Source: Antedon mediterranea
Lineage: Eukaryota > Echinodermata > Crinoidea > Comatulida > Antedonidae
NCBI RefSeq assembly: GCF_964355755.1
Contig: NC_092679.1
Span: 17,846,932 to 17,910,931 of the forward strand
Length of the DNA stretch: 64,000 bases
Direction of reading: 5' to 3'
Shown here: in pieces, positions 3,418-12,400 of the stretch
Numbering within the stretch: position 1 is the stretch's first letter
Layout: each line of letters opens with the position of its first letter
Notes under the pieces: model-generated
What the model was told of the DNA's origin: nothing
Databases searched by the model: none
Seen by the model: the letters and a program-made list of their open reading frames with translations, nothing else
Made by a program: the position numbers and the translations under genes

Positions 3418-6400
3418 ATGTCACTTCTTCAAAACGGTGTTCTCGATAGTCTTGATGACTTGGGGTAATATTTTATTTGCTATTGTTTAATTTATATTTA
3501 GATATTATTACATTTTTTCGCCTTATTATGTGTACCTTTTACACGCTTCTGAGCTAGGCCTTGCTTGTGTTGTAGCTAAGCCTAGCTAAGTTGAAGTTGA
3601 TGACATAATACTATAGGCCTAGGCTATATGTTGTGTGTCACTCCGCAATATTGTTCCAGTCCGAGTCACTTCGTCCCTTTTACATATTTAAACTAATATA
3701 GGAATTGAATTAACTATTTTTTATTTATTACTGTTTTATCCACTTTTTTTTACCAATTCAATTTGTGATCATGAATGATGTCATTGGTGTCTGATCATTT
3801 CGGCCGCCAGTCATTTCGGCCGCCGGTTATGGAATTGCCAAATTCATGAAACGCCAAAAGGACAAAATATGTATTGTTAATTTCGGCCACCAGAATTGTA
3901 ATTATTCTTGAATATGTATGACACGCCATAACTTTAAATCTACTGCAAAAACAAAATGTATTTAGTCTATTGCACAACTGATCTCTAGTTTAAATGACCA
4001 TAGGCCCTAGTTCTCTGTGGCGTTCCATAGTCTTAGACTTGATAAAGTTATTTTTTTCACTGTAATACTGTACAGTTATTTCTGGCTATTTCAATTTGGC
4101 GCGCCATACCTGGCCGCCGAAATGATCATGCCATATTTTGTCCTTTTTGGAGTTTCATGAATTTGGTCGTTCCATAACCGGCGGCCGAAATGATTGGCGG
4201 CCGAAATGCACTGTGACCATGTCATTGACATTGTCGATGATGAATTCTCTTACATACTATATAGTCCAGTCAATCTACCGATAGACCCAAAACAAATTGC
4301 AATAGTTTCCGAACCTTTTTTATTTGATTCTATATGTTCCTGGAAGAAACATTTCCAAAATCTACCAAAATCGGTTCAGTGGAACATACTTTTTTAATGG
4401 GTCAAGAGGTCATGAGGGTCAAATTCTATATTTGTATATCTCAGTAACCGCTTGGCCGAACTTGGTAATTTTGGTGTCAAACAATTCAGAAGACCCATAT
4501 TTATATTCACTCTAATGAAAGTTTTTTTATAAAAAATGACCGGAATCCATGTTTTTGACCTTTAACCTATTATTTTGGCATATTCATATCTCGGTAACCA
4601 CTGGGCGTAAACAAGCGTTTTTGGTGTCAAAATACCCAGAAGGTCTATGTTTATATTCACTCTAATGAAAACGTTTTGTGTATTATGATCAGACGACATC
4701 ATTTTGACCTTTGACATATATTCATTATTTTATATTATTTCACTAATTAAATTTTTTGTATCTCGGTGACCAATAGGCGTAACTTCGTAATTTTTGTGTT
4801 AATCAATTCAGAAGACCCTTATTTATATTCACTCTAATAAAACTTTTTACAAAAAAATGACCGGAAACTACTCTTTTGACCTTTGACCTATTATATTGGT
4901 ATATTCATATCTTTGTAACCAATGGGCGTAGATGAGCATTTTTTGTGTCAAAATATTCAAAAGGTCTATGTTTATATTCACTCTAATGAAAAAGTGTTGT
5001 GTGTTATGACCAGAAGTCATCGTTTTGACCGTTAACATATTCTTTATTTCATATCTCACTAAATATATTTTTTGTATCGCGATGACCAATAAGCGTAACT
5101 TTTGTGTTAAACAATTCAGAAGAACCATATTTATTTACTCTAATGAAACTATTTTTACAGAAAATGACCGGAAGCTTTCAACTATTATATTTATATATTT
5201 GTATCTTTGTGAACTATTGGTTTAGATGAGCATTTTTTGTGTCAAACAACTCAGAAGGATATCCACTCTAATAAAAAATGTCTGTGTATATAGTCAATGC
5301 GAAAGTAATTATTTTGACCTTAGATATCTATCCAGAAAACGTTTAGTAATTGGGGCAATATATTGGTGTTATATTTCTTCATAGATCAGCACCCAAGATA
5401 GCATTTAACTATTCATAATTCTGTTTATATTTACTTTAAAAACACACAAAACAGAAAAATATCCAAATAGGCCTGGTTGAGAATATTTACCAATCGTCTG
5501 ATTTTACAAACCCATTGTTGAATCTTCAGAATCGGTATCTTCATTATCATCTAGTGAAATGTTTGCGCATACACCTCGACACTCACTACATGCCATGGAG
5601 CAATCTAATCCATTGTTCCTACAGCTGCATTTCATATTATAGCAGCCTGTTTTGCATTTGCATTTTATGATTTGTAGGACCGATTGTGGTGCTGGGGGGT
5701 TGTCCGTCAAATATGGTATCATCCTGCCTTGGCTGATCTTCCATCCATATTTATCTGGAGGTACATTTTCTTCATTTCCAAGCCAAACTTGAACTTGTTG
5801 GTACACCCTTAGACTATGATACTTTGCCGCTGATGCCGTTGGGGGTAAAGAACGTGGATGAACTGCTTTAGTACTGCATCTAGTCTTTTCATGAAATTTA
5901 CGAAACCTCAATTCATCTAGGTTTTCATTATCACTGCTACCATACAAAGACAAAATGGCGTTATTACCCGCTGCAATTACCTCCTGTCTGTTTGCTTTAA
6001 AGGTCATAAACACTTTCGCTTGTTCAGAAAAGAAACAGTCACTTCTTACTTTAGTTACTGCTTTGATTTTCCCAATACCAAAAAATCGCGATGTCGTGTC
6101 ACATCCAAGGAACGCGTGACAAAATAGGATATATTTACAAACATCGCTGCCAAGGTCAAGTCTTGTTGCTGCAATGTTCCAACATCGTTGCACCTTTTTA
6201 GTTTCTTTCCTTTGGTTTGGCTTGAACCATACATTATGTTTGGTGTGACCACCATGGTGGATAAGGAGGACCAGGATATCTGTATCATCTGCGATGACAA
6301 CCGTGCCTATTTGTTCTGCACAGAACAGAGCCATCTTCGACACAAGATAGTCAGCGTCAGCTTCTGCGTGGTGAACAGTACAACCTTCTTTTTCAAGACT

Positions 6401-9400
6401 ATTTTCCAAAATCTTAATGAATCTTTGTTTGTTTTGAACGTTTGACAGAAATTCTTCTCTTTTGGTTTGTAAGGTCATAGATTGGTCAAAGTGTACAGCT
6501 ACACCACCACCACCACTTCTCCTTGTATGTGTACAGTCTTTTGTACTTAGTGAGTTATCGTACCCATCAAAAACAACAATGGGTTTTCCATATTTGTGAG
6601 AAACATATTTAGTGTATACTCTCATATGTCACCCCATGAAGCCCCTCTTGTCCATGGAATTTTATGAAGTAGTGCTCCTCCATCTAAGACGTACTGAATT
6701 TGATCAGGAGGTTCTGGAGCAACCTCGATTGCTGTTGACCACAAACTATCAGCTAAACTTAGCTTTATTTGCAGACCTCATCATATCTGGTGATTCAAAC
6801 AATCTAAATATATCTGATACATTACAGGGACGCAGCCAGCAAAGAATTAAAGGAGGGTCAACCAAATATGTGAGTATTTTGCGAGCGAAGCGAGCAACCA
6901 TGGGCTGGGGGCCAGGGGACCGCCAAGGGCCCCCGGTTGGGGTCCAGGGGGCGAAGGCCCCTGGAAGCTTTGGCGGTCTAGCGCAATCTAGATCATTTGA
7001 ATCGGTTTACGCACACACAAATATGACAATGTTAACACTAATAAACTGAAACAAAGAAAACAAAAAACAACTCTCATTTTCATTACAGAACATTTTTATA
7101 TTCCAGGCTGCCACAGACAAACACTTTTTTTCTTGCTTGTTTGTTGATTTGTGTAGAGAGGCTGTAAACTCAGAGGAGGAATTATTTGAACATGGAGTGA
7201 TATTATTAAATGAGAACCGTAAGGTTAGAGTTCATACACTGTGCAAGTCCAAGAAGCTATCTTGGCTCCGTGTGTGTATGTGAGACGCTTATCATACCCA
7301 GTACATACAATATTTTGTTTAAAAATATAACTTTTTTGTTCGAATGTATAGTATAGGTGATAGCTTATACATAATTGTAATAACTAACTTCTAAATTATT
7401 ATCATACATTTTACGTTAGTTACTATAACGGCGCTCTAGACATCGCGTGATGCATCATAAGTTTGGAACATTCTTCTTGGCTTGGAGACAGAATTCGCGA
7501 ATGACATTCTCTGTATTAATGTTCATGTTAAAGTGTATGTTCATGAGGCACAATCCCGAAAGCTGCTCATAAGACATGTGATTTCGCAAACAGGTTTTCG
7601 TTCTCCACCAAGTCGAAAAACTCCGCTCAGCTTCAGCAGACGTTACGGGCATAGGCCTACGCGATTAGAAGAAGCGCACGCACATTCGGGAACACATCTG
7701 GATCCGCTAATTTTACACAGTCGCTTCCATCACTGAAGCTCGGAATGAAGATGTTCGTGTCTTGGCAGATCATCGTACCAAATTCAAGTTCCTTGAAGAC
7801 TTCTTCAACATTACACTTCACGATAGACTCGGGTGCTACGCCAAATATTTTAAAGCATGGCCTGTTATCGGTAGAAAAACGGGTTTTTAACTCGGTTTGT
7901 AAATGATCAAGAAGTTGATTTGGTAATACTGCTCGGTAGTAATCTTCCACAGTATCTCCAGGATGATTTGATCTGTATTGTTGTCTCATGTTTTTATTTA
8001 TTTTTTCTAAAAAAAAGGGGGGGTCAGGACCCCCGTGACCCCCGCACTGGCTGCGCCCCTGACATTATGGCATCTTGTGCCGGCAGTTACAAGTCGTTCA
8101 AATAGAAGTAAAGGATCTACATTGACCACATCATCTTTTATCTTCAATGCGCTTTTAGAGTTCATTGTAATGGATTGGCTCTTTTTCCGAAATGTGTAGT
8201 CGGCGACCTTTTGGTTTGTCATTGATTGCACAATTTGTTGACCTACATGCTTGGCATTGTGACAGTCTACATTGATATGTGCCGTCACTCCAGTTGCAAT
8301 GTTTGTCAGTAATTTTGTACTGTCTGTATTGAATGGATTTCGCAGTGTCAGATACCTTGATATGTCTTGTACATCACTGAGGTCCTTCATCTTTCTGGCA
8401 TATGTTGTTTCTTTATGTTGTTCACTGGTAGTATACGAAACGTTAGTGAACTCTTGCATTGAATGATTGATCTTGGCGCAGACTGGAGTTGAAAGGACCC
8501 ACCCAGACAAGTCGTTAAATTTCTGTTAATCCTCGCCCTCTTGTTAGACCTCCTCTTGTTTTTATGCTACGCATAAGACACTGTTCTATGGCAAGATCAG
8601 TTGATATTCCAGCCCAACGTCTGTCAGATCGCCGCACTTATTATTTGGTCAAATTTAAAATGTTATACTCGAGACTCGAGGTTTATTCATGACACGACTA
8701 GAAAATGTTAACGGTCAAAATAATGATTTTCGGTTATATTGTACATTTGCATTTGTTTTCATTAGTCTGAGTAAATATAAACAAATATACTGGTATAATA
8801 GGTCAAAGGTCAAAAACATAATTTCTATCCATTTAAAAAAAAACTTTTTCATTATAGTGAATATAAATATGAGTCTTCTGAATCTTTTGACACAAAATTG
8901 ACGAAGTTGTGCTTAGTGGTTACTGAGATATAAAAAATGTATTTACTGAGAAATCTAAAATAATGAATATGTGTCAAAGGTCAAAATAATGACTTCCGGT
9001 CATTTTACACGGATCTTTTCCATTAGAACTAATATAAACATTGACCTTCTGAGTAGTTTGACGCAAATAACGCTCATCTACGCCCACTGGTTACTAAGAT
9101 ACGAATATACGAAAATATACAATAAAATAGATCAAAGGTCAAAAACATGCTTTCCTGTAATTTTTGGTAAAAAGGTTTCATTAGAGTACATATAAATATG
9201 GGTCTTCTGAATAGTTTGACACCAAAATCAACATGCTACGCCTAGTAGTTTTCAAAATAGAAAAATGTGTAATTTGACCCCTATGACCTTAAAACCCCTT
9301 AAAAAGTATGTTCCACTGAACCGATTTTGGTAGATTTTGGAAATGATCTTCCCAGATGCTTATAGAATCAAATAAAAAAGGTTTGGAAACTATTGCAATT

Positions 9401-12400
9401 TGTTTTGGGTTACGCCCTTTTTTGTCATAGATTGACTGGACTAATAGGAAGGCTATATTGTAATTAAATCTACTCTACAGTAATTCTAGTATCGTGTCCA
9501 TTAAACGACTTCATATACATATAATAGTCTGATATGATTATTGTAGTACTGTTTTCTTACAAAACATGGAATATAACATTTTTGTTTTTAGTTATGATGG
9601 ACCACTTACTGAAGAAGATGCATTTACACAAGCCCTTCGATCTGGTTCCAGTTCTCCTGAGTTCACCACCCTAGTGTCATGGATTGCAGGTCAACTCAAA
9701 CTCATATGCCATCTAGAAGAATCTATAGCTGCAACTACTAGTAATGTGCTTTAAGCTCTGTCTACACTATCAAACTTTATGTGACAAAAAAATGTGATGT
9801 GCCCATATATGGACATGATGATGTCATATCACTACAATGTTTGGACCTGCATATCAAACCCATACTTGGACACTCTGTGTAAACAGAGCTTTAGAATATA
9901 ATTATATTATATAAGATTATATACTTTATTGTACTCTTTTGTTTGTTGTGTAGGACCTACAGTATGTTTTAATTATGAACTTTATCTTTTTGTAAGGTGC
10001 TGAAGATTTAGAAATGTTTGAGATGGAAGTAAGCGGTTTTCTGAAAGAGATGCACTGCCCTCATGCCTGTCTTATAGAGGGCGACCTTCACGAACGCCTC
10101 GGTAATGAAGAAAATAGACTGAAACTTCTAGATTTCCTGACGACAGAATTACAGGCAGCCAAGATGATTGCGATGGATCCTTCTAATGTAAAAAATTCTG
10201 AAGAAAACGCGGAAGTAGGTGTATTTAATATTTGGGTATGGGGGGGGGGGGGGTGAGAATGGTTCCAACGTAACTCAAAATTAAGGTTACCAAAAACATT
10301 CAGAAGAAATACATCAACCAGCACACACAAGTATCATCTGTAGAATGTTCAGAACTGTTCAACATACTGTAGAGTCTCTCATTGCAATAACATACACAAT
10401 TTTAAGCATAAATACATATTTTTTATTTTGTCTATATTTCAGATTGGTTGGAATGAGTTCAGTAAATATCTTAAACGTATTTGTGTAGATCTTGCATTGT
10501 CTAAACCGCCTCCCAATGTTACAGAAGTTCAGTTATTTAACAAGTTAGAATCACAGCTACGGTCAGTCATTAGTCAAGCCCCTGATGGACAACTTGGGAA
10601 ACCTTTGATGAAGTTTTCTCTGAATATCAAGCAATGGGTAACATGTTTTTTACAAATATCTTTTTTTGCTGGTTTAAAATTCTTTTTTTAAAACATGGAA
10701 AAATACACTTTCAAGTTTACTAGTACTTTCCAGATTCCCTCTAATAATAACTGTACTGATAAAAATAAATGATTTGTTTATTTTTAGGGTGCATTGCAAG
10801 GCATAAACAACAAATTGAAGTTAGAATATCAACTAAGGAGACAAATGTTGTTAAAACGTTTGGATGTTACGGTTCAGTCTTTTTGCTGGTCAAACAAAAT
10901 ATCAGTAAGTATCTTGCACATATCTTCAATAGATTAACCTTTAGTTACTGTACATGTATAGATGTTATTTGTTGTTTATATTAGATAGTGGAGATGTAGT
11001 TTGGTGGTGTGCTTGCTTTCCAATTCCAGGGTCCATGGTTCAATCCTGAGCTAGTGCCAGGGTTGTAACTCACGACTTGTTGTAGCTCCACTCCATAAGC
11101 CTCAAATGAGACTTGGTTTATAAGCACAATAAATTATAAAAAATAGTTTATCCATCCTGTAATTGGCGAGTTGCTCGCTGTTCGATGCGTGTGAAATAAA
11201 AAAATTTAAAAATGTATTAATTTCTTCAATTTCTAAAATTGTATATTTCATTATCGCGCTGCTCCTTTAGGCAGTTGTAGTCAAGAGAACGGAATCAACA
11301 GCGCTGCAAATTAAGGGGTATTTGGTCGCATTTGCGACCTAATTTTTCTGTTTGCGACTAAAGAAACAGAATAGGTCGCGCATAGCGCGACAAGATCGTC
11401 TGCTTGTGCGAGTTGTTTCAAATTGAAGTCGGGTGTGTTTTCCCTTTTTCAAACACTGTGTAATTTAATCTCTCTACTACGGAAGGCTCAGGAGTTTCTA
11501 CTAGTCACCGCCGCCGCAAAGGTGTCAGGTTCATTCAAGCGTACAAAGCCCCTAAACATTTTACACTCGTTGTGATTGGAAGTTCGTCCATTTATTGCAT
11601 GCTGCCTTACCCAATCACACAAAAGGACACCAAACACACAGCACAGTGTGACGCGCGGACGACACAAACCTCGTGGAAAATCACCGCCGTACACACAGAA
11701 GTTAGCCAGGGCGGGCGCGGTAGATACAAAGGATTGTCGCCGCGCAGTCATCAGCATTTTTTAGGCAGTATAAATGGTTATATCATGATTAATAAATAAT
11801 GTAATTAATGATATATATAATAATATCTATTCACTATATAGATTAAACAGCAGTATTGTTTATCAGTAGATTTAATACTTTATTCCAGATTCTGATTATC
11901 GAAAATTATATATCAGAGAAAATACCGCAACTTTTCCTACGAAGTAGCTTCGTAGATAAAACAGGCTACGTTGTTGGCTTTGTATGTAGGTTACATTGTT
12001 TGGCTTCGTTAGTATAAACCTCAATAAACAACCTCACGATGTTCTTAGTAAGTAACAAGGTGTGAAAATTATTATTTAATGTGTTATTTTTGACTGGCGG
12101 AGGAGGACCAATTTGTACATTACTAAGAAATATATAATATAATAGTTTTTATTCGTAAATATTTCATTCGTGTGTGTTTTTTTACTCTCAACGGCGAATA
12201 TAAATTTCCTACAATGTAAACGTAGAGACACGATCCAACAAAATGAACTATGCCAACTAATAAAAATAATATAGCGAACGTTCAGTCGATCCAGAAACAT
12301 GCAAACAAAAAGATCGTAAACAATTCATTCTAAATATAGTATCAGAACGTTCAATAGGTCGCTCAAAAAGATTGCCGACAGAAGACCGTAATTAATACAG

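Follow-up and report, generated by a model that had tools for sequence, protein, structure and literature searches.

A recently mobile, probably non-autonomous TIR transposon of Antedon mediterranea carrying a truncated XPG nuclease-CXC gene

The window, a stretch of 64,000 nucleotides of contig NC_092679.1 of Antedon mediterranea, contained a transposon with terminal inverted repeats (TIRs) at positions 4262 to 9443 (not assigned to a strand). The element had a length of 5,182 bp, to which a nested hAT insertion contributed, and was bounded by ATA target site duplications (TSDs) at 4259 to 4261 on the left and 9444 to 9446 on the right, both read from the sequence, with the 3-bp length backed by gap-free empty sites of other copies. 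The left arm (4262 to 5334, plus strand) and the right arm (8700 to 9443, minus strand) had the same terminus; the outermost 16 bp at the two ends (TAGTCCAGTCAATCTA, read from 5') were perfect inverted repeats, and the longer arms were made up of subterminal repeats of 150 to 172 bp. Positions 4285 to 4394 paired with 9301 to 9410 at 92% over 110 nt. The original prediction of long inverted arms at 4262 to 9443, made from the letters of the window, was exact to the base. Genome-wide, a degenerate form of the 16-bp terminus occurred 225 times, compared to 5 times for a reversed control pattern. Because of this excess, and because 14 more copies shared the termini and had matching flanks, the window element is not due to chance.

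Just to the left of the element, a separate 75-nt inverted repeat (87%; 3785 to 3859 and 4145 to 4219) with CGGCCGCC-type motifs was found, which is possibly a small foldback element. About 90 bp to the right, an exon-like frame at 9533 to 9754 matched DUF2465 (FAM98 family, E = 5.9e-7), and thus the element appears to adjoin or sit within a FAM98-like gene.

One native gene was found between the arms, as had been predicted; it lay on the minus strand and was not intact. It consisted of an open frame (P0001, 374 amino acids [aa], 5504 to 6628) annotated as a FEN/XPG-type nuclease with a CXC domain and of an upstream part at about 8062 to 8637. The two were separated by a 1,237-bp nested hAT element fragment (6825 to 8061, minus strand) with CAGGGRCGCAGCCAG ends and a 6-bp TSD (ACATTA, at 6819 to 6824 and 8062 to 8067), the hAT identity of which was supported by a Pfam Dimer_Tnp_hAT match (E = 8.1e-7). 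Another frame break occurred near 6630, and the first catalytic-Asp strand of the nuclease was lost from P0001 through frame breakage. Within the 5' portion of this broken gene lay a linker between transposase and nuclease (8062 to 8501, minus strand) and, at the start of the retained coding part (8500 to 8637, minus strand), the end block of a transposase region (R-R-S-D-R-R-W-A-G-I-S-T-D-L...E-Q) located by tblastn with relatives.

Searches with the window protein alone against Pfam and, with phmmer, the PDB gave no usable match, and its single-sequence AlphaFold model (mean pLDDT, 32) was unusable for fold assignment; identification of the nuclease needed a profile built from relatives. The profile of the nuclease part matched Exonuclease 1 (E = 0.001), with the FDG, AD (ADAD), D-D (DTD), and GCD motifs in register. 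The aspartates of DGG/FDGY, DAD, DTD, and GCD were invariant across the aligned sequences and followed the FEN order, the window copy itself being without the first strand. A weak XPG_I match was obtained for one relative (L026), and in the relatives the XPG nuclease lay within the same open reading frame (ORF) as a DUF6589 region. The CXC (tesmin/TSO1-like) cysteine domain (5561 to 5677, minus strand) contained eight cysteines that were invariant across relatives, one of which (L028) gave a weak Pfam TCR match. The profile match and the eight conserved cysteines bear out the predicted PIN/FEN-like nuclease and CXC gene inside the arms.

A search of the genome with the left end recovered approximately 22 copies at 96 to 100% identity, and a search with the right end recovered a matching set; these searches scored the best candidates only and may have missed copies. 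The window family numbered about 20 to 25 copies, approximately 1.7% apart, with the same ends and the same FEN/XPG nuclease and CXC gene. Searches with the element end and with the PIN-CXC protein, which the original prediction had proposed, thus repeatedly returned the gene between the same ends. In all 14 further copies that were cut out with their flanks, both termini were those of the window element, and the 3-bp flanking duplications matched except in L014, the flanks of which suited TATA (4 bp) better; the duplication was therefore short and constant in nearly all excised copies, but possibly not in this one. The mean divergence between copies within the gene was 1.7%, which indicates that the family moved recently. 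Longer copies (approximately 6 kb) were considered as full-length elements with a transposase and rejected, their extra length being hAT-like insertions.

Four of the 15 examined copies (L009, L011, L013, and L021) were located inside tandem-repeat arrays, which are perhaps a target preference of the family. For copies in such arrays, empty target sites could be read in neighboring satellite units. The joined flanks aligned with these units without gaps only when exactly 3 bp was taken as duplicated (60/60 identical for L021), and this alignment spoke against a 4-bp duplication, except possibly in L014. The mobility that had been suspected is supported by the number of young copies, their identical ends, the exact duplications of 3 bp, and the empty sites in neighboring satellite units; the window element is thus a genuine DNA transposon that moved recently.

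When the genome was searched with the 374-aa protein, family copies matched at 74 to 100%, followed by a drop to relatives at 30 to 47% in much longer frames. These relatives had single ORFs of 1,247 aa (L026), 1,171 aa (L027), 1,247 aa (L028), and 1,547 aa (L029), as well as 1,464 aa in L030, where the frame was cut by the end of the locus. All five had the same nuclease-CXC end, preceded by 500 to 900 aa, and the domain order in full-length relatives was a DUF6589-like region, the XPG nuclease, and CXC. L028 (9.6e-7) was the sole relative above the curated Pfam cutoff for DUF6589, and L024 gave a value of 1.1e-4. In an alignment of five full-length sequences, the D of DN-x-D and the D of [FV]DQ were invariant, and the E of IEQ/IEE was present in four of the five; judged from this conservation, the three residues of the DUF6589-like region plausibly form a DDE triad with a putative catalytic role. 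The full-length relatives, with their conserved D, D, and E, thus speak against the original prediction, which had named full-length relatives with a standard DDE transposase as its refutation.

Two of the related families, family 2 (L023 with L040 and L041 to L043) and family 3 (L044 and L045), had the same TAGTCCAGTCA termini as the window family and carried the upstream transposase region together with XPG-CXC. Their 3-bp duplications matched (TAT, TTC, TAG, CTA, and ATT), except for L044, which was without a clean duplication. L023 retained the motifs DNVD, FDQ, IEQ, DGG, DDTD, and GCDTT; one internal stop preceded its end. A separate 7.74-kb family with TAGGCCATCGGG termini (TAGGCC ends) contained a complete 1,247-aa DUF6589-XPG-CXC ORF; two of its copies were 99.97% identical, with the duplications CCA and ACA, and this full-length family was probably active very recently. 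The loci of the 7.74-kb transposon were L028/L049 (C5) and L046/L048 (C8). The alternative that the nuclease gene is cargo of an unrecognized superfamily is not supported by these findings, since both the relatives with the same termini and duplication length and the recently moved full-length family carry the DDE-like part.

Among the best candidates scored in the genome, no full-length element had the exact arms of the window element and a C terminus more than approximately 50% identical. L050 to L055, which had the same 16-bp ends and different interiors, were considered as an intact transposase partner and rejected as decayed non-autonomous elements. L050 to L053 and L055 represent a further non-autonomous family of about 3.1 to 4.3 kb with these ends; their interiors retained pieces of the nuclease gene and approximately 20 aa left over from the same transposase block. 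L054, a MITE-like element of 539 bp, had TAGTCCAGTCAATCTA as its ends, and a second, 537-bp terminus pair was located approximately 17 kb from it on the same contig.

Alignment of the relatives by tblastn began at one common point in the window copy and 20 other copies, corresponding to residue 65 of the second frame of L023 (L023_2473), residue 631 of L026, and residue 520 of L027; L036 and L037 gave no tblastn match to the relatives, and L038 gave a short fragment only. The region of the relatives upstream of this point, which contains both conserved Asp motifs, had no counterpart in the window element, whereas the E block was kept. The gene of the window element therefore starts within the last transposase block, at a distance of approximately 60 bp from the right arm. 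Only L014 had a long frame free of interruptions (613 aa). The window nuclease gene is thus the broken C-terminal end of a larger, putative transposase protein. The observation that no DDE transposase is visible was correct for this copy, the sole reason being the deletion of that part.

Copies with a broken gene had also moved. The window copy, L009, and L010 contained the same 1,237-bp hAT insertion at the same position in the gene (99.6 to 99.8% identical) and lay in unrelated flanks with the duplications ATA, AAG, and GTT, respectively. Another gene-destroying hAT insertion was common to L013, L021, L022, and L033, the first three of which had the duplications TAT, AAA, and TTT. Shared insertions at unrelated sites with different duplications indicate that gene-broken copies transposed again, in trans. 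Relative to a spectrum-based neutral model, singletons in the gene had a ratio of nonsynonymous to synonymous substitutions (N/S) of 0.85, and shared substitutions had one of 0.78. The gene of the window family therefore evolves nearly neutrally, and the values slightly below 1 may reflect weak past constraint.

Taken together, the nearly neutral gene, the renewed transposition of broken copies, and the relatives with the full protein and the same termini support the interpretation, to which a probability of roughly 90% is given, that the window element belongs to a young, non-autonomous family that arose by deletion from a cut-and-paste transposon encoding a DUF6589/Academ-like DDE transposase-XPG-CXC protein. 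A deletion in a founder element would have removed the 5' region of the gene, and with it the first two putatively catalytic Asp motifs, and left both inverted ends in place. A transposase from elsewhere in the genome, probably encoded by a relative that shares the TAGTCCAGTCA termini, would bind these ends, excise the element, and insert it at a new site, duplicating 3 bp. What is left of the gene, the nuclease-CXC frame, would be a hitchhiking remnant that is dispensable in cis.

The remnant could instead be expressed from some copies and act in trans: it might serve as a helper nuclease in second-strand processing, or it might repress and thereby regulate the full-length elements. The deletion derivative would then be a functional satellite rather than a dead passenger. 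The presence of the fragment in nearly all copies and the slight deficit in N/S (0.78 to 0.85) are consistent with such a role, but these ratios are close to neutral, a complete 613-aa frame occurs in one copy only, and persistence of the fragment is explained by a divergence of approximately 1.7%, too young for decay; this role is accordingly considered unlikely. Less likely still is that the FEN/XPG-CXC protein serves as a new type of transposase, as the original prediction had suggested, one that would be free of DDE and make the element autonomous. Every copy has the nuclease-CXC gene and no other native gene between its ends, and L014 keeps its 613-aa open frame; against this, the gene corresponds to the C-terminal remainder of a truncated, originally larger protein with a DDE-like N-terminal part, relatives with the same ends carry that upstream region, gene-broken copies kept moving, and the gene is nearly neutral. 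It is scarcely credible that an old segmental repeat, or a domesticated gene lying by chance between inverted repeats, accounts for the arms and gene, even though diverged relatives occur throughout the genome: the flanks were unrelated, the duplications were exactly 3 bp, the satellites contained empty sites, and 225 termini were counted versus 5 in the control.

As a non-autonomous derivative, the element is very probably an ordinary passenger of a known kind and not a novel transposase. The "PIN/FEN-CXC" frames scattered through this genome stem in part from the C-terminal ends of transposase proteins, and such gene models therefore merit checking as transposon fragments rather than counting as host genes. 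The recently moved 7.74-kb family, with its nearly identical full-length copies, is a good object for studying the role of the XPG nuclease in transposition.

Among known systems, the nuclease resembles FEN1, EXO1, and XPG in the order of its acidic motifs, which aligned with Exonuclease 1, but it is joined here to a CXC domain and a transposase and is not a cellular repair gene. EnSpm/CACTA elements have 3-bp target duplications and subterminal repeats, both of which were also found here. However, the termini here are of the TAGTCC type (TAGTCCAGTCAATCTA) and not CACT(A/G), with CACTA/CACTG termini absent from the window element and its copies, and the protein is of the DUF6589-XPG-CXC type. 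The nucleases of AcademX elements are XPG-like, and an XPG-type nuclease was encoded with the transposase in the full-length relatives. Academ is a recognized superfamily of DDD/E transposases (PMC9587614, PMC10294476) that includes the AcademX lineage (Kapitonov and Jurka 2010; Kojima 2020, as summarized in PMC10045372); duplications are 3 or 4 bp in AcademX and 9 or 10 bp in AcademH, linked to an encoded nuclease and helicase (PMC10045372). AcademH, from the same superfamily, differs in its helicase, for which neither the window protein nor its relatives gave a match, and in its longer duplications. The CXC domain is not among the Academ features stated in the PMC articles cited here, and the window element differs from AcademX in being without the transposase part and hence non-autonomous. 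In common with AcademX, the full-length relatives are TIR DNA transposons in which a nuclease is encoded with the transposase, and duplications were 3 bp in the window copy and nearly all excised copies and in the 7.74-kb family (CCA and ACA). The full-length relatives, at 4.6 to 7.7 kb, are comparable in size to Academ elements of bivalves (mean, 5,565 bp; PMC10294476). On structure and duplication length, the full-length relatives fit the nuclease-carrying AcademX lineage of the Academ superfamily, to which they putatively belong.
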